Source of the DNA: Thermosphaera sp.
Lineage (GTDB): Archaea > Thermoproteota > Thermoprotei_A > Sulfolobales > Desulfurococcaceae
Direction: 5' to 3'
DNA length: 64,000 bases
NCBI GenBank assembly: GCA_038827615.1
Contig: JAWBNK010000001.1
Coordinates: forward strand, 868,290-932,289
In this document: in pieces, positions 16,984 through 45,661 of the stretch
Position numbering within the stretch: position 1 is the stretch's first letter
Layout: each line of letters begins with the position of its first letter
Notes under the pieces: model-generated
What the model was told of the DNA's origin: nothing
The model's input: the letters and a program-made list of their open reading frames with translations, nothing else
Database searches by the model: none
Program-made: the position numbers and the translations under genes

Positions 16984-17862
16984 CTAGGACCCTATTATCT
17001 TCTTTAATGCTTCATCAGTGGTTAAGCTTACCTCGTAAACTTTGTTAAAGAACCTGACGATATATTCAACATCCCTTTTCAATAACTCGAAGGATGAAGG
17101 GTGATCCTTGTAAACGTATTGAGGCCAATCTATTATGTAAGGGTCTTGAGTATCAAGGTTAATCAGTATGTTGTACTCGCTTAGATCACTGTGAATTATT
17201 CCCACGTCTTGATAAGCTGTCTTCAACGTATCGAGTATTAAATTTAAAACAGCCTCGGGATCGCTGAGTTGAGGCCTCTTATACAGTTCAACCCCCTCTA
17301 AATACTCGACAACTACGACATGCCTGTTGTATCCATAAGGGGTGGGAACTTTTGCTCTCACCAGTACGAGTTCTTTAAGAGCCCTATACTCTCTCTCCGC
17401 GGCTATTTTTGATTGCTCATACCATGTAGAACGAGGACCCCTGGACCAGTCTCTCAATATTTTCGTTCTCCTAAAGCTAGCGCGGCCTATTCTTAAAAAC
17501 TTCACGGCAACCTTTTCCCCTCCGGTTGATAGTCCCACAAAGATCTCGCTTTCTTTTCCAACCCCTATTTTATCGCCAAGTGCCACTAGAACCTTCTTTT
17601 TCACGAGCTCATCTATAGCTATCATATCGTATCCTAGGGTGGTCATCCTGAAGCTCTTGTATCCACCAATGGTCTCCCGCTTGACAAGTCTAAGTTTATT
17701 AAGCTTACTTAGAACAAGCGTTAAATGCTCCTCCAGTATCTTAGTCCTCTTCTCTATTTTTTCAAGGGGTACATACTCGTGCCGAGAGGAGAGGTCTTCA
17801 ATAGCTCTTAGTACCTGGATGTCTCTCGGGGTCAAGCTCTTATAGAGCAAACCTATGTTCAC
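16984..17862 (-). CDS. rio2: RIO2-type serine kinase/ATPase
   Basis: Atypical kinase involved in small-subunit ribosome maturation. The N-terminal winged helix (YKSLTPRDIQVLRAIEDLS) is the RIO2-specific domain. The P-loop region GKESEIF, the catalytic HSDLSEYNIL and the metal-binding IIDWPQ are all present. The start is placed at GTG 17862, where GTGA overlaps the stop of the MfnA-like gene. A TTG at 17877 would add five residues not typical of the family. Confidence 0.95.
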   Translation of the reverse strand: MNIGLLYKSLTPRDIQVLRAIEDLSSRHEYVPLEKIEKRTKILEEHLTLVLSKLNKLRLVKRETIGGYKSFRMTTLGYDMIAIDELVKKKVLVALGDKIGVGKESEIFVGLSTGGEKVAVKFLRIGRASFRRTKILRDWSRGPRSTWYEQSKIAAEREYRALKELVLVRAKVPTPYGYNRHVVVVEYLEGVELYKRPQLSDPEAVLNLILDTLKTAYQDVGIIHSDLSEYNILINLDTQDPYIIDWPQYVYKDHPSSFELLKRDVEYIVRFFNKVYEVSLTTDEALKKIIGS

Positions 17863-19004
17863 ATGCCACCACTCCAACCATGTATTTTCTCTAAAGCCTT
17901 GATCAATGTCTGGACATGGCTTTCGCTCACGTGCGGCATTATAACAGCTCTAACAGCTTTGAGCGAAGGAGATTTATATAGGAAGATTTTCTCTTTCATA
18001 AGCATTTTAATTAATTCAATATAATCTAGCACGCGAGACCTCCATACCACGATAGGCAGGATGGGTTTGTATGCTTCCACGAAGGGTCTTTTAGTCAGTT
18101 CTTCGTAAAGATGAAGTGCTATTTTCTGTTGGCTAAGCGCCTGCTTTTCGTAACCATCTAAACCTATTGCCTTAACCACAGCCCATGAAGCGATCAGCGA
18201 GCCGCCCGGCCTAGTGCCAAGCAATCCACAATTAATTCCCGAAGGCAGATACTCCATTTCGAAACAAGCATGATTCAGGAGTTCCTCGTCCCTAACAAAG
18301 AGTAAGCTGGAGGGAATGGGGGCTCTTCCATTCTTATGTAAGTCCACTGACACGCTAGAGACTCCGGGATGGAAGTAAATTGTTTCATCAAGCATTCCAT
18401 GCTTGAAGAGGAATGGAACAATCAAGCCGCCGAACGCTCCATCAACGTGAAGGAAAACATCGTATTCAAGAGCGATCTCTGAGACCTCCTTTATTCTATC
18501 CACAACCCCAAACTCCGTGGTACCTGCTGTGACAACGATCGCGTAAGGATTGAAATCTCTAACATACTTCTCCATTAAATCGGGATCCACGGGGTCCGTC
18601 GGGCTGACGGGTATCTTCACAAGCCTGGAGCCCATGAGAATACACGCTTTATCAACTGATGCATGAACCGTTGAGGGCGCGACGACCACGTTATCCTTGC
18701 CTCTACTCGCCCTCTTAGCTATTAGCAAAGCCAAAATGTTAGACTCTGTTCCCCCGCTTGTGAACAATCCATGTCTAGAGCCGTATAGGGTTCCAATGGT
18801 CTGAATAAGGTATTGTTCAGCATCTTTAACTATCGGAAACAGAATGGGATCATTACCGTTGACATGCATAAATAGCTGGTAAGCATAGACTCCTATCTCA
18901 TGAGGCCAAGTAGTCATGGAGCCCAATATGCTTCCTTCAAAATGCTTCGGAATTCGATTATACCATTCTCTAAGCTCATCTATTATTTTCTCAAAATCCT
19001 CCAA
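17859..19004 (-). CDS. mfnA: PLP-dependent decarboxylase, MfnA type
   Basis: Group II amino-acid decarboxylase. The PLP-lysine motif is SVSVDLHKNGRAPIP, preceded by HVDGAFGG with the PLP-pairing aspartate, and GTESNILALLIA forms the phosphate loop. In non-methanogens the archaeal enzyme is thought to act mainly as aspartate decarboxylase, supplying beta-alanine for coenzyme A; the tyrosine activity of methanogen MfnA is less likely here. TTG 19004 has GAGGG six bases upstream; TTG 19010 is an alternative. It lies between TIP49 and RIO2 in a probable operon. Confidence 0.9.
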   Translation of the reverse strand: MEDFEKIIDELREWYNRIPKHFEGSILGSMTTWPHEIGVYAYQLFMHVNGNDPILFPIVKDAEQYLIQTIGTLYGSRHGLFTSGGTESNILALLIAKRASRGKDNVVVAPSTVHASVDKACILMGSRLVKIPVSPTDPVDPDLMEKYVRDFNPYAIVVTAGTTEFGVVDRIKEVSEIALEYDVFLHVDGAFGGLIVPFLFKHGMLDETIYFHPGVSSVSVDLHKNGRAPIPSSLLFVRDEELLNHACFEMEYLPSGINCGLLGTRPGGSLIASWAVVKAIGLDGYEKQALSQQKIALHLYEELTKRPFVEAYKPILPIVVWRSRVLDYIELIKMLMKEKIFLYKSPSLKAVRAVIMPHVSESHVQTLIKALEKIHGWSGGM

Positions 19005-37925: not shown

Positions 37926-39578
37926 TTACTCGAAACTCCCGGGCGAGGGCATTTCTCCGCCTTCCTTCTTACCCTTCTCTTCCTTCTTTACTGGGCTGGC
38001 GGCAATTATGTCGTCTATCTTCATGATGGTTATGGCTGCTTCCGCGGCCGTCTTTATCATCGACTCCTTGACCAGCAATGGTTCAATAACGTTAACCTCA
38101 ATCATGTTCTCCCTAACCTCTCCGGTGACCACATCTATTCCAGCATACTTCTTTCCTTCGCTGTGAAGTTGCCTGAGTTTCATCAGTGTCTCCAACGGGT
38201 CCTTGCCACTAGATTCTGCAAGAATCAGCGGGATCTCCTCGATAGCTGATGCAAAGGCTTCGATAGCCAGCTGCTCCTTACCACCCACCTTAGCAGCAAA
38301 CTCTCTTAGCCTCATGGCAAGCTCGATTTCTACGGCACCGCCGCCTGGAACTATCTTAGGAACCCTCATAACGTTTCTCAGTACGTTTAACGCGTCCTTT
38401 AGACTTCTCTCAATCTCATCCATGACCATATCGTTCGCTCCTCTTATCAAGATAGTGACAGCCTTCGGGTTCTTGCACCCCTCTATGAACACCATCTTAT
38501 CATTACCTATCCTTCTCTCCTCGACGAGCGCGGCATATCCGAGGTCTTCCGGCTTCAAATCTCTGACACTGCTCACTATTTTACCGCCAGAGGCTCTTTC
38601 AAGCTTCTCTAGATCGCTCCTTTTCACTCTTCTCACAGCCATGATGCCCTTCTTAGCGAGGAAGTGTTGAGCCACTTCGTCAATACCTTTCTGACATATG
38701 ACGACGTTTGCCCCTGAAGCAGCAATCTTCTCAACCATTTCTTTTAATAGATTTGCTTCTTCATCAAGGAATGCTTTGATTAATTCAGGGCTAGAGATGT
38801 TTATTTTCGCTGTTATCTCTGGTTTCTCCACCTCTAGGGCTGCGTCTAGCAGGGCTATTTTAGCATTCTCAACTCTCCTGGGCATGCCGGGGTGGACTAC
38901 TTCCTTATCGATTACAATGCCTTTTATCAGTTGAGTGTCGATAACGTTTCCTCCCTTCTTCTTCTCAATTTTCACATCATCCGTCTTAAAGTCGTAAGTT
39001 CCGTTTTCCTTTGACTCGGCCACTGTTAGAGCCGCTTCGATAGTCATGTCGGCAAGCTTGTTTGAAATCACATTTCCTCCAATATACTTGCTTGAGATCG
39101 TGGTCATGACAACTTTTTTCAAAGCTTCTCTATCGGTTGGCTCAACCTTGTATGCTATCTCACTTAAGAACCTGAGGGATTCTCTTAACGCCTTGGTGTA
39201 TCCTTCAATTATTATGCTTGGATGAATGTTCTGATCGAGAAGCTCCTCAGCCTTCGTCAAGAAGGCTCCAGCTAAGACTACAGCGCTGGTTGTCCCATCT
39301 CCGACCTCGGCGTCCTGAGCCTTCGCAACCTCTACAAGGAGTTTAGCTGCAGGGTGTTGAACCTCCATTTCTTTGACAATGGTGGCTCCATCATTAGTAA
39401 CTGTAACATCTCCAAAACTATCGACCAGCATTTTATCTAATCCGCGTGGACCAAGGCTGGTTCTTAAAACCTCGGCGAGTGCCCTAGCGGCTGCAATATT
39501 TCCTCTTAATGCCTCTCTACCTATCGTTCTTCTAGTTCCCTCTTTCAATACAAGTACAGGTATTCCATACATCGCCAT
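37926..39578 (-). CDS. Thermosome subunit (group II chaperonin)
   Basis: ATP-dependent protein folding chamber. Landmarks are [27 protein letters not shown] near the N-terminus, [14 protein letters not shown] (catalytic aspartates), the apical region with [14 protein letters not shown], and [12 protein letters not shown]. The C-terminal tail is charged with Gly ([17 protein letters not shown]). 550 residues. ATG 39578 with GGTGAG six bases upstream. A clear promoter precedes it. Only one chaperonin gene is in this window; other subunits may lie elsewhere. Confidence 0.97.
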
Positions 39579-39722: not shown

Positions 39723-40082
39723 GTGAACGAAATGTACGAGCTAACCAGTAGAGAAGAGTTAGAAAGAGCCTTGATGTCTAATGATCTAGTTATAATAGAA
39801 TACTACCTTCCAGACGATGATGAGAGCTTTATTCTTTCCGAAGTAATAAGGGAGCTCGAGAAAACAATAGATCCGAACATTCTCGTTTGCAGAGTGGATG
39901 CTACGAGGCAGGACATCTTGGGTGAAAAACTATCGCAAACCCCTATTGTTCGAGTTTACTATAAAGGGTCTATAGTGTTTGAGCAAAAAGGGGTTTTCAA
40001 AGACAAGGAGTTGAATCTTCAAGTTTTAAGACGGGGCATACGTTCAACGCTCAACTCTAAAGGAATACGTGCTCGAATATGA
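39723..40082 (+). CDS. Thioredoxin-fold protein lacking the CxxC active site
   Basis: A 119-residue protein with the thioredoxin strand-helix order: LVIIEYYLPDDDESFILSEV in place of the usual CGPC helix, then LVCRVDATRQDILGEKL, and QTPIVRVYYKGSIV with the cis-proline position (TPI) preserved. The residues where the redox cysteines should be are acidic/serine, so it is unlikely to be an oxidoreductase and may be a binding or chaperone protein. GTG 39723. It diverges from the thermosome gene. Confidence 0.7.
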   Translation: MNEMYELTSREELERALMSNDLVIIEYYLPDDDESFILSEVIRELEKTIDPNILVCRVDATRQDILGEKLSQTPIVRVYYKGSIVFEQKGVFKDKELNLQVLRRGIRSTLNSKGIRARI

Positions 40083-40102: not shown

Positions 40103-40933
40103 TTAGATCTTGACATCCCTTTCGTTTATACTCTCCACTATGAAGTGAATATCGGAGGGCTTTAAGTGAATCAAATAGTAAATCCTACCGGGGATTACGC
40201 TTTTCGAGCGGGGTGAGAAGACGCCGCTTGAGTTTGCTAAAACATACCCTATCTCCAGCACGCTCCTCAATTCAGCAACGCTCGCCGATTCAACATATAA
40301 TTTAAATTTGTTGTTAAAATCTAGCTGAGACCTAACGTATTGCTCGTTCACAATCCTTCCGCACACGAGGCAGGAAAGATCGCTTCCTAAGCTATTAAAC
40401 CCGCAATGTGGGCATTGAATAAAGTCTTTCGATACGCTCTTATTCCAAATGGTTTGAAGAATCATGATTAATTCCTCCCTCCCGTATTTACGGGATAGAG
40501 AATATAGTTTCGATATGTTAGGGATTATAGCTCTCCCGCCGCGATAAACCACGTATTCCAGGGTTTTTTCATCGAGATCATCTGAAGCCTCTATGATTCT
40601 ATGAGCAATAAGCTCGTAGAATCCTTCTAGATTTCTCTTAATCCTTTTAATAATCGTCTCACCATCTGGTTTAGTCGAATAACCCATTGTAACTGCCTCT
40701 ATTATCTCGCGGGATATTTGGGTCTTCAATTCCTCAGGAATGTTTAATTCGCTCAACCCAAGGAACTCTAAAACATCCTTGGAATACTTTGATATTAAAT
40801 CATCGATTGAAAATGTTTTGGAAGTCTTCTTTTTAGCGACTACGGGTTTAGCATCGCCTCGTCGAGCCTCCTCTCCACTCTTCTCCCGTAGGATTTTTGA
40901 TTCGGTTTTCCTAGGACGAGGAATTAGAAACAC
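40103..40933 (-). CDS. Zinc-ribbon-containing protein, unknown function
   Basis: A 276-residue protein: a basic low-complexity N-terminus, a helical domain (about 40-160), one zinc ribbon CPHCGFNSLGSDLSCLVCG (about 175-195) and a C-terminal domain with LKPSDIHFIVESI. No enzymatic motif. It is the last gene of the five-gene minus-strand unit that includes the PPP-family phosphatase; only 12 bases separate it from the gene before it. I do not recognise a family. Confidence 0.65.
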   Translation of the reverse strand: MFLIPRPRKTESKILREKSGEEARRGDAKPVVAKKKTSKTFSIDDLISKYSKDVLEFLGLSELNIPEELKTQISREIIEAVTMGYSTKPDGETIIKRIKRNLEGFYELIAHRIIEASDDLDEKTLEYVVYRGGRAIIPNISKLYSLSRKYGREELIMILQTIWNKSVSKDFIQCPHCGFNSLGSDLSCLVCGRIVNEQYVRSQLDFNNKFKLYVESASVAELRSVLEIGYVLANSSGVFSPRSKSVIPGRIYYLIHLKPSDIHFIVESINERDVKI

Positions 40934-40945
40934 CCTGAAGAAGGG

Positions 40946-41293
40946 TTAGATGGAAACGCCCTCAGGTATTCGGGCGTGTCTGGCCAGGGCGCCTGATTTT
41001 TCGAGATAGTTTCCTATGATATAACTCAATATTAGTTTGGCTATTTGAGGTTTATCTCTGAGTCTTAGTAAGAATTCTCTGATATCGGAGACGTCTCCCC
41101 GGCCCTTAAATACTTCTTTCTTAACAGAGTTCACAATCGTTATTAATAATTCTTCATAGTCTTCTTCGGACTCTAGACTGTCGCCATAATACCTCTCCAA
41201 TAATTCCTCGAGAATGTCGCCGATGACCTCATCCACCATTTCGACAATGGATTCTTCCTCGACTTTATCCAACAGTGCCACCCGATAACCCAT
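40946..41293 (-). CDS. Small acidic helical protein, unknown function
   Basis: A 115-residue, strongly acidic all-helical protein (EESIVEMVDEVIGDILEELL) with a basic, Arg-rich C-terminal stretch (ALARHARIPEGVSI). ATG 41293. It lies between the phosphatase and the zinc-ribbon gene with short gaps on both sides (31 and 12 bases). No family recognised. The close coupling to the zinc-ribbon gene suggests the two products form a complex. Confidence 0.65.
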   Translation of the reverse strand: MGYRVALLDKVEEESIVEMVDEVIGDILEELLERYYGDSLESEEDYEELLITIVNSVKKEVFKGRGDVSDIREFLLRLRDKPQIAKLILSYIIGNYLEKSGALARHARIPEGVSI

Positions 41294-41324
41294 TAAAAGA
41301 ATACCAGTTTATAAACCGTATTTT

Positions 41325-42248
41325 TCAATACTCGACGCGAATTTTAGCGAGATCTAACTTGTAGTTATCCTCTTGTGGATTGTAAACGTATTCAACTACC
41401 CCAATAACGTCTAGTCCATACGGGATGGCCGCGTCGAAAACCGTTATAACTAATCCTTCGTGTGAAGTATTATATCCATAGGCTACCTCATGACTTCTCA
41501 CAATATACTTACCTCTTATCAGATTTAGAGCGCGGGCGGTTACTTTTTTGCCATACAATCTTCCAGCCCCGCGTGGAGATTCCAGAAAATCCACGTTTAG
41601 ATCTATAGGATCGTTCCACAGGACTTCCTCGATTATCTTAGGGTGAAATACCTTAGAGTCCAAAGAGAAGGCGTCGCGAAAACTATCTGTTTCCAAGACC
41701 TTAACGGGAGGTCCTCCATGGAGCATTAACAACTCTCCTTGAACGTAGGCGACCAGAGGGAGTTTTTCGAAAAGCTTCTGAAACAAGCTATACAACTCGC
41801 CACCCTTATCTCCATATTTGGCTGCCAAGATGGATGGAAAATCGTGAGGATGAGGTATGAGCCAAGCAGGCGGTTCATGATTCCCTCTCAGGAGGATAAA
41901 TTTATCCTCGTATTTAGTTTTTAGGTAAAGGATGGCCGCAAGGGTCTCGACCTGGTAGTCCCCTCTATCAACATAATCTCCGAGAAAGACGAATACATGA
42001 GAATCTTCCTTCAAGAATTCATACTTTTTCTCTAAAATATTGAGTAGTGAGTGAATATCTCCATGTAAGTCTCCAATAATGTGTAAGTTAACACCTCTTT
42101 TGATTTCGACCACACCGGGCTCGTGAAAAACGAAGTTCCCAGAACTCTTCCAGAGGACGTCGATGGACTCTTCTATCAGTTCTGATAGTTCCCGGTAATC
42201 TGCGGATATAGCCAGTACTTCTTTAACAATCTCCTCTAACTTCTTCAT
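41325..42248 (-). CDS. PPP-family serine/threonine protein phosphatase
   Basis: Complete PPP metallophosphatase signature: GDLHG (59-63), GDYVDRGD (90-97), RGNHE (121-125), a LMLHGG motif and RSHEV near the C-terminus. The N-terminal 55 residues form a helical extension absent from compact archaeal PP1 types. ATG 42248 gives 307 residues and a 19-base gap to the upstream gene; upstream in-frame codons run into that gene. It would dephosphorylate Ser/Thr phosphoproteins; targets unknown. Confidence 0.92.
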   Translation of the reverse strand: MKKLEEIVKEVLAISADYRELSELIEESIDVLWKSSGNFVFHEPGVVEIKRGVNLHIIGDLHGDIHSLLNILEKKYEFLKEDSHVFVFLGDYVDRGDYQVETLAAILYLKTKYEDKFILLRGNHEPPAWLIPHPHDFPSILAAKYGDKGGELYSLFQKLFEKLPLVAYVQGELLMLHGGPPVKVLETDSFRDAFSLDSKVFHPKIIEEVLWNDPIDLNVDFLESPRGAGRLYGKKVTARALNLIRGKYIVRSHEVAYGYNTSHEGLVITVFDAAIPYGLDVIGVVEYVYNPQEDNYKLDLAKIRVEY

Positions 42249-42267
42249 CTTTATCTTCCACTTATGA

Positions 42268-43188
42268 CTATTCGAGAAGAGTAATATAAGGATAAATCTC
42301 GTAGGTAGAACTTTCAATAGTTTCATGATGTACTCTCGGGTCGTTAAGTTTGAACGGATCGAACCATCCGTGTAGTACTGCAATGGCTGGTTGCTTACTC
42401 AACAAATTGATCTGGTCAACCCCGACTAAGAGGCCATTCTTAAACATCGTATTCACAAGCCTGCTCATGAGCGATATTGTAGGAGATACTATTCTGGCGA
42501 GGGAATAAACCCCTCCCGTCCTGTAGATGAGTCTGGGATACGTCAAATCTTTCACATGGTTGTAGTAGTGGAACAATATGTTCTTAAGCATATATTTCTT
42601 CGAGATATGGGCTAGTATATCTGTGACTCTAACATCTCCCTGAAGTGGAGGGTTGAATAGATTGTACATTTCAAATATGATTAATTCATCAATGCTGTCT
42701 TTAGGAGGAACAAGCTGAGACTCATCGATCAACTTAAAATCAATTCTCCGCTCCGTGTAATTTTCCAGGGGGATGATGACGTCTTCAACAGTACCGGAAA
42801 AAACTATGTTGCAAATCTGCGTATTTATTTCTAAGACTTCCTCGGGGATGGGGGCTCGCTCTAAAATATACATTATTAACAAGGGTTTTCTACTAAATGA
42901 ATAATAGATAGAAAGGATTCGACGTTTATTATCAATGCAAGCTGATACCTCTGCCTTTTGTGTCATTTCAATCATCAAGAATGTGGGTCGCCGCGATCCC
43001 AAGGGCTTCATTAGAATGTTGTAGTATTTGAATAAGACTTCATTCTCAAACCCTTTCGAAATAAGGTGTGAAATATGCGATGGCTTCAAGCCGAGCTTTT
43101 TTGAAACCTCCTTGAGGCTTGCCCCTTCATTGTACAGCTCTATTATCCTCAAAAGGTCATGAAGTTGGGAGTATGAGAGCTTAGACAT
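42268..43188 (-). CDS. Putative helix-turn-helix regulator
   Basis: A 306-residue protein whose first 60 residues form a helix-turn-helix (LHDLLRIIELYNEGASLKEVSKKLGLKPSHISHLI). The remainder is a mixed alpha/beta region of unknown type (EMTQKAEVSACIDNKRRILS, then a helical part). It lies directly upstream of the phosphatase gene with a 19-base gap, and six bases downstream of the gene at 43554. Regulation of its own operon is plausible but not shown. No family recognised beyond the HTH. Confidence 0.65.
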   Translation of the reverse strand: MSKLSYSQLHDLLRIIELYNEGASLKEVSKKLGLKPSHISHLISKGFENEVLFKYYNILMKPLGSRRPTFLMIEMTQKAEVSACIDNKRRILSIYYSFSRKPLLIMYILERAPIPEEVLEINTQICNIVFSGTVEDVIIPLENYTERRIDFKLIDESQLVPPKDSIDELIIFEMYNLFNPPLQGDVRVTDILAHISKKYMLKNILFHYYNHVKDLTYPRLIYRTGGVYSLARIVSPTISLMSRLVNTMFKNGLLVGVDQINLLSKQPAIAVLHGWFDPFKLNDPRVHHETIESSTYEIYPYITLLE

Positions 43189-43194
43189 GAGGAT

Positions 43195-43554
43195 TCATCC
43201 AATACAGGATGCTAATAGTACATTGACATACTCTTGTTTTAATTCAGATATTGAAAGCTTTATGTGGGCCTTGTAATAATCACCTTCTTTTTCCACTAAA
43301 AAGCCCCGACTCTCCAACTCATCTACTCTATCCGACTTTAGAGTGGCCGTGGAGTAGGTTAGCTTAAGGGAGTCCTCACCAATTTTTACAAGCAAAACCT
43401 CATCGTCTCCGAATATTCTGAAGAGTACGAACTCGTGTAGTCCTCCTGTAAGGTCTCGTTCACTTATACGTTTTTCAACGACTTTCTTTCCTGCAACCCT
43501 ATTTTTCAGAAAATCTCTAATCCACTCAACAACCTCTGATTCAGTGGCTACCAT
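43195..43554 (-). CDS. Small hypothetical protein, first gene of the phosphatase unit
   Basis: A 119-residue alpha/beta protein (ESEVVEWIRDFLKNRVAGKK, FVLFRIFGDDEVLLVKIGED). ATG 43554 is supported by GGTGGTG six bases upstream; GTG codons at 43566 and 43563 are alternatives. It opens the five-gene minus-strand set that continues through the HTH protein and the phosphatase. No conserved cysteines or catalytic motif. Not recognised. Confidence 0.6.
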   Translation of the reverse strand: MVATESEVVEWIRDFLKNRVAGKKVVEKRISERDLTGGLHEFVLFRIFGDDEVLLVKIGEDSLKLTYSTATLKSDRVDELESRGFLVEKEGDYYKAHIKLSISELKQEYVNVLLASCIG

Positions 43555-43738: not shown

Positions 43739-45661
43739 CTACTCAATGTTAAGTCTTTCTCTAAGCATCCTTTTAACATTTTCAGCGACGACGGCACCGT
43801 CGATTCTTCCTTTCACTAGTTTCATTGTCTCGCTCATTACTATTGCAAAAGCTTTCTCCCTCTTTGCAAGCAACTTTTCTCTATTATTCATGATAATCTC
43901 GTCAATTATTCTCTCCAAATCTTGAATAGTCAGTTTAGTAAACCCTAGTTCCTTTATTATTTCTTCAATACTTTTCCCGGGTTGCAGAGCCGCTTGTTTG
44001 AGGATTGCTGGAACACCTTCTTTCGAAACCTCTCCTTTCGATATTAGATCAACTACTTTTTCAATAATCTCATCCGTGATGTTTTCAATAGGGATGTTTT
44101 CTTTTCTCAAGGAGGGGATCACGTTGACAAGTATCGAAGCTATTACGGAGGGTTGTACTTCTTTCTTGTACTTTTCCACGAGAGATTCATACAAGTCGAG
44201 TCTTAGATCTCTTATCAGAATAGATGCCAGCTCCTCGCTTAATCCGTGATGCTCAACAAACCTCTTCAATTTGATATCCGGCGATTCAGGAACGAGTTTT
44301 TTGGCTTCCTCGAGGATTTCTTGAGTAATATACACAGTGGGAATGTCGGTTTCAGGGTACATCCTAGCTGCCCCCGGACGTGGCCTGGTGTACTTAGATG
44401 TGCCATCAGGGTTTGCTCCTCTAGTCTCCTCAGGGACTCCGAGTATTGCTTGCCTAGCTCTCTCTATTACCGCTCTTAGAGCGTTTACACTCTTCTCGGT
44501 TTGGTCTGCTACTATTACGATAGCGTCTTCTTCAGGGTTGGCTTTCATCTTCTCATATAGTTTTCTAACCTCGTCGCTTGTTATCCCATAATTGGGTAGT
44601 TCATCGGTATGGAATATTCCTCCAACACCGCCCCACGCTTTAGCGTAGTCGGAGAGTTCCGTGCCAAATCTCCTCCCGGGTTGAATCTCTTTACCCAGTA
44701 ATCCTTTGAATTTTGGCAAAACGGTGGCGTAAACCCCTGCATTTCTCATCGACAAAGCCTTCCTTATGATTTTTGATGATGTCTCCTTGAAAACTTCGGT
44801 TACATCAACGATTTCATCCTTCAAATCACCTGAGTTTACCCCCCTCTTTTCGAGCTCTTCTTTGATCTCGAGAAGCCTTAGTTGCCTGAGAGCTTCTAAC
44901 TCTACTACCCGCGAGATCATATACAAATGCTGAATCCCCTTTATCTCCACTTTTGCCCCATTGCGGATGCTAACGTTGAGGTCCTGTCTTATTGTTCCTA
45001 GACCCCTCTTGGCGCGGCCAGTCAACCTCACCAATTGGCCAAGCTTTAAAGCAATCTTTACAGCTTCCTCGGGATGTGTGATGTCTGGTGCTGTGGCAAT
45101 CTCCACCAAGGGAATTCCCAGCCTATCTAGTCTATAAACTACCTTGTTCTCCTCCTCAACTATTTTTCTCGCTGCATCTTCCTCTAAGCAAAGAGTTTGG
45201 ATCCCTATTCTCTTACCTTCATCGAGAATGTATCCGTTTAAGGCTATCAACGCTGTTCTCTGGAATCCACTGACATTGCTCCCGTCGACGACAATTTTTC
45301 TCATAACATGAACCTCGTCCACAATACGCATGTTTAACGCCATGGCTATAGCTAATGCCAGTTTAAGCGATTCTTCATCTAAATTGTGCGGGGGTTCTTC
45401 ATCAGCTTCCACCAAGCATGAGGACTCCGAAGGAGCCTCGTACACATACATCCTCTCCTTCTTCCACTCCAAGAGGGCAGCAGGGTCTACTTCGCCTGTT
45501 TCGCTTTTAGCGGGCCTGAGCGTTCTCTCAATCCGCAGGCTCGGCGCTTCTTCGAGGAGTTTAGTGGGGCATTGACAAAATAGTTTTCTCAAGGTATCTA
45601 GTTGAACGTGAATCTCGAGTCCAATTCTTAAGCCTATTGCCTCATAATCTAAATTACTCAT
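43739..45661 (-). CDS. gatE: Archaeal Glu-tRNA(Gln) amidotransferase subunit E
   Basis: Phosphorylates Glu-tRNA(Gln) and transfers ammonia to form Gln-tRNA(Gln), with GatD supplying the ammonia. GatB-like kinase core: [44 protein letters not shown] and [10 protein letters not shown]. The GatE-specific AspRS-like insertion (about 290-430) separates the core from the helical C-terminal tail domain. ATG 45661 with GAGGTGGTATC upstream. Overlaps the gatD stop by eight bases. Confidence 0.96.

Follow-up and report, generated by a model that had tools for sequence, protein, structure and literature searches.

The five closely packed genes around a PPP-type phosphatase in the Thermosphaera sp. genome probably constitute two adjacent gene sets, a phosphatase operon AB-HTH-PPP (module 1) and, beside it, a separate and older unit of AC and ZN to which a thioredoxin-like gene (TRX-like) may be added (module 2). 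The window, that is the whole 64,000-nucleotide stretch of DNA that was analysed, contains five minus-strand open reading frames at positions 40103-43554, where the first-pass annotation had placed them. They encode the small alpha/beta protein AB (43195..43554, 119 residues), the tandem Lrp/AsnC-type protein HTH (P0004; 42268..43188, 306 residues), the phosphatase PPP (41325..42248, 307 residues, starting at ATG 42248), the small acidic helical protein AC (40946..41272) and ZN (40103..40933, 276 residues). Each of them is a real gene, because relatives were found in other genomes. With the annotated starts, including ATG 41293 for AC, the gaps between successive genes are 6, 19, 31 and 12 bases, which agrees with the tight packing described previously. 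The open reading frame of AC opens at ATG 41293, but translation probably begins further along, at TTG 41272, because the equivalent ATG in a relative (L033) runs into a stop codon; the gap between PPP and AC would therefore be about 52 bases. Module 1 is preceded by a minus-strand gene at 43739..45661, which we take to be gatE and which is kept upstream in 13 of the 16 genomes of the host's family. Beyond ZN lie the TRX-like gene (P0006; 39723..40082, plus strand, convergent with ZN), which belongs with module 2, and a minus-strand thermosome subunit gene (37926..39578), the conserved neighbour of this module.

The comparison sample comprised 117 genomes of the order, sixteen of which form the host's family (f1). 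Relatives of PPP were found in 112 genomes and those of ZN in 108, making ZN near-universal; profile searches yielded relatives of AC in 41 genomes and of AB in 38, and relatives of HTH in fifteen, all from the host's family. All five genes are adjacent and co-directional in three of the 117 genomes, which belong to one genus (3/16 in the host's family and 0/101 in the others, where HTH was not found). The claim of a single five-gene unit is not borne out by this distribution. An operon devoted to reversible protein phosphorylation, with AC and ZN as regulatory subunits of the phosphatase, would account for the tight packing in these three genomes and for the shared direction of PPP, AC and ZN in all sixteen genomes of the family; nevertheless, we consider it improbable. 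The distance counts for AC, ZN, PPP and TRX-like are based on hand-entered coordinates. Of the 37 genomes with both PPP and AC, 16 place them less than 3 kb apart, and every one of these belongs to the host's family; in the other 21, PPP is away from AC. The distance between PPP and ZN is at most 4 kb in 19 of 105 genomes, among them 16/16 of the host's family, and in the remainder PPP lies away from ZN (86/105). Five further genomes of the host's family have the same gene order, but an opposite-strand gene splits PPP from AC. The restriction of HTH to the host's family and the TATA-like box that precedes AC also argue against one operon. The single phosphorylation function that had been suggested for all five genes is not supported, given the separation of PPP from AC and ZN in most genomes.

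The genes are not scattered among relatives without a shared pattern; the pattern is clear, yet it is one of two modules. AB adjoins PPP, or is one gene off, also in families f4, f8 and f10, where the order is AB, another protein, PPP (in f8, genome G018). In 30 of 32 genomes, which span five families, no more than 1.5 kb separates AC from ZN. Family f9 has eight genomes with AC and none with ZN, which argues against an obligate AC-ZN pair. Families f1, f2, f3, f4, f8 and f10 comprise 67 genomes with ZN, all of which carry a TRX-like gene at most 1.5 kb from it; in f5, f6, f7 and f11, ZN is present without a close TRX-like gene. TRX-like coordinates were entered for 79 of 106 genomes; the weak matches omitted come mostly from f5, f6 and f11, and none of those inspected by eye, in an unscripted check, is near ZN. 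ZN adjoins the TRX-like and thermosome genes also where PPP sits elsewhere. In the neighbourhood set, which outside the host's family was hand-picked and is non-random, ZN and TRX-like share a strand and overlap or lie at most 13 bases apart in each of 11 neighbourhoods from other families, and a thermosome gene is present in 31 of the 36 ZN neighbourhoods, two of the other five reaching a contig end. Proximity of thermosome and ZN genes was also seen in 51 of 55 genomes among the matches listed, but one row per genome had been picked on the ZN contig, and this biased count was not used; the thermosome linkage is therefore stated only from the neighbourhood count. A cysteine-rich, 108-residue neighbour of ZN in f11 (c31) was considered as a candidate AC and dropped after its sequences had been read.

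It is possible, although we doubt it, that the arrangement is pure synteny, in which five unrelated house-keeping genes became neighbours after the genes between them had moved. Three genomes of f4 and f10 (L051-L053) preserve an order that fits this reading: AB-X-PPP, a small HTH gene (c16), a disulfide oxidoreductase, a ribonucleotide reductase and AC-ZN-TRX-thermosome. However, ZN and TRX-like are end to end on the same strand wherever TRX-like is near, save in the host's family, where the TRX-like gene is turned, and AB and HTH have relocated together, away from PPP, in two genomes (L037 and L039). Both observations argue against pure synteny.

Upstream signals are consistent with the division into two modules. 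A TATA-like box, TTTATAAA, lies on the minus strand between PPP and AC (41308..41315). Among the 16 genomes of the host's family, 11 have the pattern TTTAWA ahead of AC (1.9 expected), but one has it ahead of PPP and one ahead of ZN, so that AC-ZN probably has its own promoter, as judged from sequence. Among the family genomes, the same pattern precedes the thermosome gene in 13 of 14 (2.3 expected), HTH in none of 15 and AB in one of nine. A first count, with another pattern and window, gave a box before AC in 8 of 16 (2.3 expected); a second TATA pattern (14/16 for AC) was chosen post hoc from the sequences and is excluded from the argument. Other families do not show this signal: there, a TATA-like box lies ahead of AC in one of eight genomes. 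No enrichment of boxes was detected upstream of AB/HTH (4/15, with 3.3 expected), and module 1 may therefore be transcribed from gatDE. In 11 of the 16 genomes of the family, AC follows PPP without an intervening gene, with gaps of 14-143 bases; therefore, read-through from PPP into AC is possible.

The identification of PPP as a phosphatase and of its neighbour as a putative HTH regulator agrees with Pfam Metallophos (E 3e-24) and the HTH fold matches, respectively, and no protein-kinase gene adjoins the cluster, as had been noted. By sequence, PPP is a predicted eukaryote-like Ser/Thr phosphatase of the PP1-arch/PP2A type, and its best solved relative is the PP2A catalytic subunit (E 2.4e-33). 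The translation and the PP2A alignment contain the motifs GDLHG, GDYVDRG, GNHE and HGG. Eukaryote-like PPP enzymes are defined by an Asp in domain 3 in place of the second bacterial Arg and by an Arg close to where the loop of this domain ends (PMC8249667). PPP has both residues: its LWNDP and SPRGAG stretches are matched by LWSDP and SPRGAG in PP2A C. Where FSAPNY is expected PPP has FDAAIPY, a stretch before which the PP2A alignment ends. The alignment with human PP2A begins at residue 18 of PPP and residue 16 of the catalytic subunit, and the extra helical N-terminus ascribed to PPP in the first-pass annotation is thus of ordinary PP2A-type length. PPP shares its catalytic motifs with the eukaryote-like archaeal enzymes PP1-arch (Sulfolobus), Py-PP1 (Pyrodictium) and PP2A of S. 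acidocaldarius; the archaeal members characterised so far are Ser/Thr phosphatases (PMC8249667), an activity that PPP would be expected to share. In contrast to these enzymes, PPP is clustered with a tandem Lrp-type protein, and the interaction partners of S. acidocaldarius PP2A named in PMC7472852, namely ArnA, ArnB, a GPN GTPase and a universal stress protein, lie outside the cluster. Taken alone, the phosphatase operon is an unremarkable variation on an archaeal enzyme that is already known.

The AlphaFold2 model of HTH (pLDDT 89.6) shows two successive pairs of an HTH and a ferredoxin-like RAM domain, beginning with the HTH at the N-terminus (wHTH-RAM-wHTH-RAM), in agreement with fold and profile matches. 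Pfam HTH matches are all below their cut-offs, and the profile matches in the PDB, which include Lrp-type chains, fall on the N-terminal HTH of DNA-binding proteins. Over the whole chain, with two HTH and two ferredoxin-like domains, the model resembles tandem Lrp/AsnC proteins and NirDL. The best Foldseek match is NirDL (4czc, E 6e-6), and VIA superposes the model on 4ch7 with Z 8.1 and rmsd 6.4 over 251 residues, as would be expected if HTH were a siroheme-decarboxylase-like enzyme (AhbA/B, NirDL) and no regulator. We regard this as very improbable, given that identity is only 8-10%, that single Lrp regulators also match the model and that the profile matches point to DNA-binding proteins; the comparison with these enzymes covers the fold. 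HTH further differs from the known tandem Lrp/AsnC proteins and NirDL in adjoining a phosphatase and in its restriction to the host's family among the 117 genomes. The proteins that take the place of HTH elsewhere (c24/c53) were rejected as homologues (hhalign probability 0.05%).

The reading of the last two genes as those of a small acidic protein and a zinc-ribbon protein was correct: AC has a pI of 4.6, and every one of the 36 ZN sequences from the neighbourhood set carries the CxxC...CxxC ribbon. ZN is predicted to consist of a basic tail, a helical (TPR-like) domain, the ribbon and a C-terminal domain. For AB, AC and ZN, the only trusted match in Pfam, NCBIfam, PADLOC and PDB profiles was the zinc ribbon. 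The suggestion of an undescribed system stands insofar as these three proteins are unmatched beyond this ribbon and one PHROG, but not as regards a single system. ZN matches that PHROG, phrog_30683, of unknown function, over nearly its full length (E 1.6e-24). Searches of phage records, viral contigs and plasmids gave no support for a viral origin of ZN, nor any relative in the phage records and viral contigs; we therefore think that phrog_30683 goes back to host sequence included in a predicted provirus. Matches of the basic tail and first helices of ZN to histone H2B (E about 0.1) were taken for chance, as was the lone weak match of AC to AbiB in PADLOC (E 0.005, 44 residues), and a defence-system reading, which had this PADLOC match only, was set aside. 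Foldseek of the ZN model gave no match at E 0.001 or better; the best VIA match (Z 6.5, rmsd 2.7, 63 residues) covers helical hairpins 104-167 and may represent only a common helical-repeat arrangement, from which we claim no fold.

The P0006 family has a thioredoxin fold by profile, and none of the 26 members of its cluster carries CxxC, the mark of a redox-active thioredoxin. Phosducin-like chaperonin cofactors combine a non-redox thioredoxin fold with an N-terminal helical chaperonin-binding domain. The putative likeness of P0006 to phosducin-like proteins lies in its thioredoxin fold, in the lack of CxxC and in its position beside a group II chaperonin gene, but P0006 has no phosducin match in Pfam and, at 119 residues, no separate N-terminal domain. 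No paper on AC, ZN or TRX-like was recognised in the literature searched, a search too small to exclude one.

Based on these data, a mechanism can be proposed. PPP would be expressed as module 1 with the tandem Lrp-type HTH and the small partner AB. A small ligand is most likely sensed by HTH, which would control expression of the cluster or of the phosphatase targets. PPP would remove phosphates added by the few kinases of the genome, among which RIO2- and Bud32-type enzymes were found. AC-ZN with TRX-like would constitute a house-keeping unit of greater age with a promoter of its own. Within it, ZN may serve as a scaffold: its basic tail and zinc ribbon would contact nucleic acid or ribosomes, and AC and the cysteine-less TRX-like protein would dock on its helical domain. 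Module 2 would serve protein folding alongside the thermosome.

We speculate further, and with considerable doubt, that AC, ZN and the TRX-like protein form an undescribed cofactor complex of the group II chaperonin, and that PPP sets its state of phosphorylation in the host's family. The TPR-like zinc-ribbon scaffold and the non-redox thioredoxin fold would then act like the phosducin-like cofactors of CCT. Thermosome subunits of S. islandicus are phosphorylated on Ser and Tyr, as stated in PMC7744417. Were these proteins to act on the thermosome, archaea would have chaperonin cofactors beyond prefoldin, which might bear on the origin of the eukaryotic CCT cofactors. ZN merits attention: near-universal in the order, it is given no function by the libraries searched, its predicted helical zinc-ribbon structure has no clear solved counterpart, and it is retained beside a non-redox thioredoxin fold and a chaperonin gene. 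Other house-keeping genes, RpoK and ribonucleotide reductase, also sit near the thermosome gene, and the order there may therefore be old synteny without contact.

The first-pass annotation described a compact row of five minus-strand open reading frames in the window and read it as one unit of single function around a phosphatase. The frames and their positions were confirmed: from upstream to downstream they are AB (a small alpha/beta protein), HTH (P0004), PPP (the phosphatase), AC (P0002, acidic and helical) and ZN (P0001, a zinc ribbon), with gaps of 6, 19, 31 and 12 bases when PPP is counted from the ATG at 42248. The row is preceded by two genes that we take to be gatE and gatD. Twenty bases beyond ZN, on the opposite strand, lies the gene of the thioredoxin-fold, TRX-like protein P0006 (39723-40082), and beyond it the thermosome gene followed by what are presumably RpoK and a site-2-protease-like gene, on the minus strand. 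The genome is archaeal and 1.36 Mb long. The packed row is real, but the single-system reading is unlikely. All five genes are contiguous, with nothing inserted, in only three of the sixteen genomes of the host's family (f1), all from the host's genus. Most likely, we infer, the row combines two neighbouring units: an operon for a Ser/Thr phosphatase and its Lrp-type protein, and next to it a distinct AC-ZN(-TRX) unit of greater age that borders the thermosome gene.

Gene order was compared in 38 neighbourhoods fetched by coordinates for the main clustering and 18 added later. PPP, AC and ZN share one strand in 16/16 f1 genomes, as a single system would have it, and a small opposite-strand gene, CS-like by our reading, separates PPP from AC in five of them. 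HTH is directly 5' of PPP in twelve f1 genomes and elsewhere in the three g2 genomes; among the 16 f1 neighbourhoods, none was found in G049. In two g2 genomes AB and HTH lie together at gatDE, while PPP-AC-ZN remain with the thermosome gene (L036-L039). The TRX-like gene is convergent with ZN in 11/16 f1 genomes and co-directional in 5/16.

The hexamer TTTAWA, a promoter consensus, was searched for 75 to 16 bases before the starts of f1 genes, with expectations from shuffles. It precedes AC in 11/16 genomes (1.9 expected) and the thermosome gene in 13/14 (2.3), in contrast to PPP (1/16; 2.1), ZN (1/16; 1.0), gatD (3/15; 2.2), HTH (0/15) and AB (1/9). The gap between gatE and AB or HTH was not enriched (4/15 versus 3.3). 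The TATA-like box of AC in the window is TTTATAAA (41308-41315). The related stretch L033 shares this box, but there the reading frame opened by AC's upstream ATG is interrupted by a stop codon, so AC probably starts at the TTG at 41272, behind GGTG. Because the box before AC shows no clear enrichment outside f1 (1/8 versus 0.3 expected), this sequence signal supports the split of PPP from AC-ZN within f1 only.

The order of the host comprises families f1 to f11 (117 genomes, 16 in f1). PPP was found in 112 genomes, ZN in 108 and HTH in 15, all f1; profile searches found AC relatives in 41 and AB relatives in 38, including 10/16 in f1. ZN occurs in 170/197 genomes of a wider draw from the class. 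AC is within 1.5 kb of ZN in 30/32 genomes, and the TRX-like gene is equally close in each of the 67 genomes of f1, f2, f3, f4, f8 and f10 that carry ZN; PPP is within 4 kb of ZN in 19/105 and within 3 kb of AC in 16/37, all 16 in f1. Outside f1, ZN and the TRX-like gene lie end to end or overlap on one strand in 11/11 neighbourhoods (-47 to +13 bases; longest open reading frames). Of the 36 ZN neighbourhoods in the main clustering, f1 included, 31 contain a thermosome gene. Against a strict AC-ZN(-TRX) module count f9, with AC but no ZN found, and f5, f6, f7 and f11, which carry ZN without a TRX-like gene nearby. In some f9 genomes AC is at the thermosome/ribonucleotide reductase locus (L083-L086), and G056 has a second AC copy apart from ZN (L091:6424-6786).

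The f4 and f10 neighbourhoods (L051-L053) run from AB through an unrelated 426-446-residue protein, PPP, a small HTH gene, and presumed disulfide oxidoreductase and ribonucleotide reductase genes to AC-ZN-TRX-thermosome; the f1 arrangement therefore looks like this region with its middle genes removed. Unrecognised proteins of 350-450 residues are encoded next to AB, or between it and PPP, in f4, f8 and f10 (L052:13929-15209, L054:9029-10078, L051:1100-2440); they gave no trusted Pfam match and by hhalign are unrelated to the HTH protein occupying their place in f1.

PPP is a phosphatase of known kind and shows those eukaryote-like features that could be tested. The extra helical N-terminus ascribed to it was not borne out, as its residue 18 is already paired with residue 16 in the alignment to PP2A C. 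A PF00069 search of the genome gave one match at 42.8 bits, presumably a Bud32-like kinase, and a second, below the cut-off at 20.7 bits (16984-17877 of the window, minus strand), which we take to be RIO2-like. P0004, judged from its AF2 model (pLDDT 89.6), is a tandem Lrp-type protein; the model matches NirDL (Foldseek E 6e-6; VIA Z 8.1, rmsd 6.4, 251 residues). PP2A of S. acidocaldarius binds ArnA and ArnB as well as a GPN GTPase and a stress protein (PMC7472852); none of these partners is encoded at this locus. Phosphorylation of thermosome subunits, known from S. islandicus (PMC7744417), leaves room for a possible PPP-chaperonin link.

The ZN-TRX-AC-thermosome association is the part deserving experiment. 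The AF2 model of ZN (pLDDT 88.3) shows a basic tail of low confidence together with a helical domain, a zinc ribbon and a small C-terminal domain; no trusted relative was found among solved structures, and phrog_30683, of unknown function, is its only full-length family match. AC and AB gave no trusted match. The P0006 family is assigned to the thioredoxin fold by Pfam Thioredoxin hits in 13/19 members (E ≤ 0.1) and by profile matches to PDI/thioredoxin chains. CxxC occurs in 0/26 members, and in six families the gene of this CxxC-less protein (39723-40082; alignment A5) directly adjoins the end of ZN, next to the thermosome gene. In other families a protein of cluster c12 adjoins ZN and the thermosome gene (L052:5274-6269, L069:1086-1877 and relatives); it weakly matches the TtuA N-terminal zinc-finger, has the SGGxDS PP-loop in 0/12 members and is perhaps a catalytically dead tRNA-thiolation paralogue. 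The ribonucleotide reductase of G010 (L052:7901-11698) has 1265 residues versus about 850-900 in relatives and appears to contain an intein.
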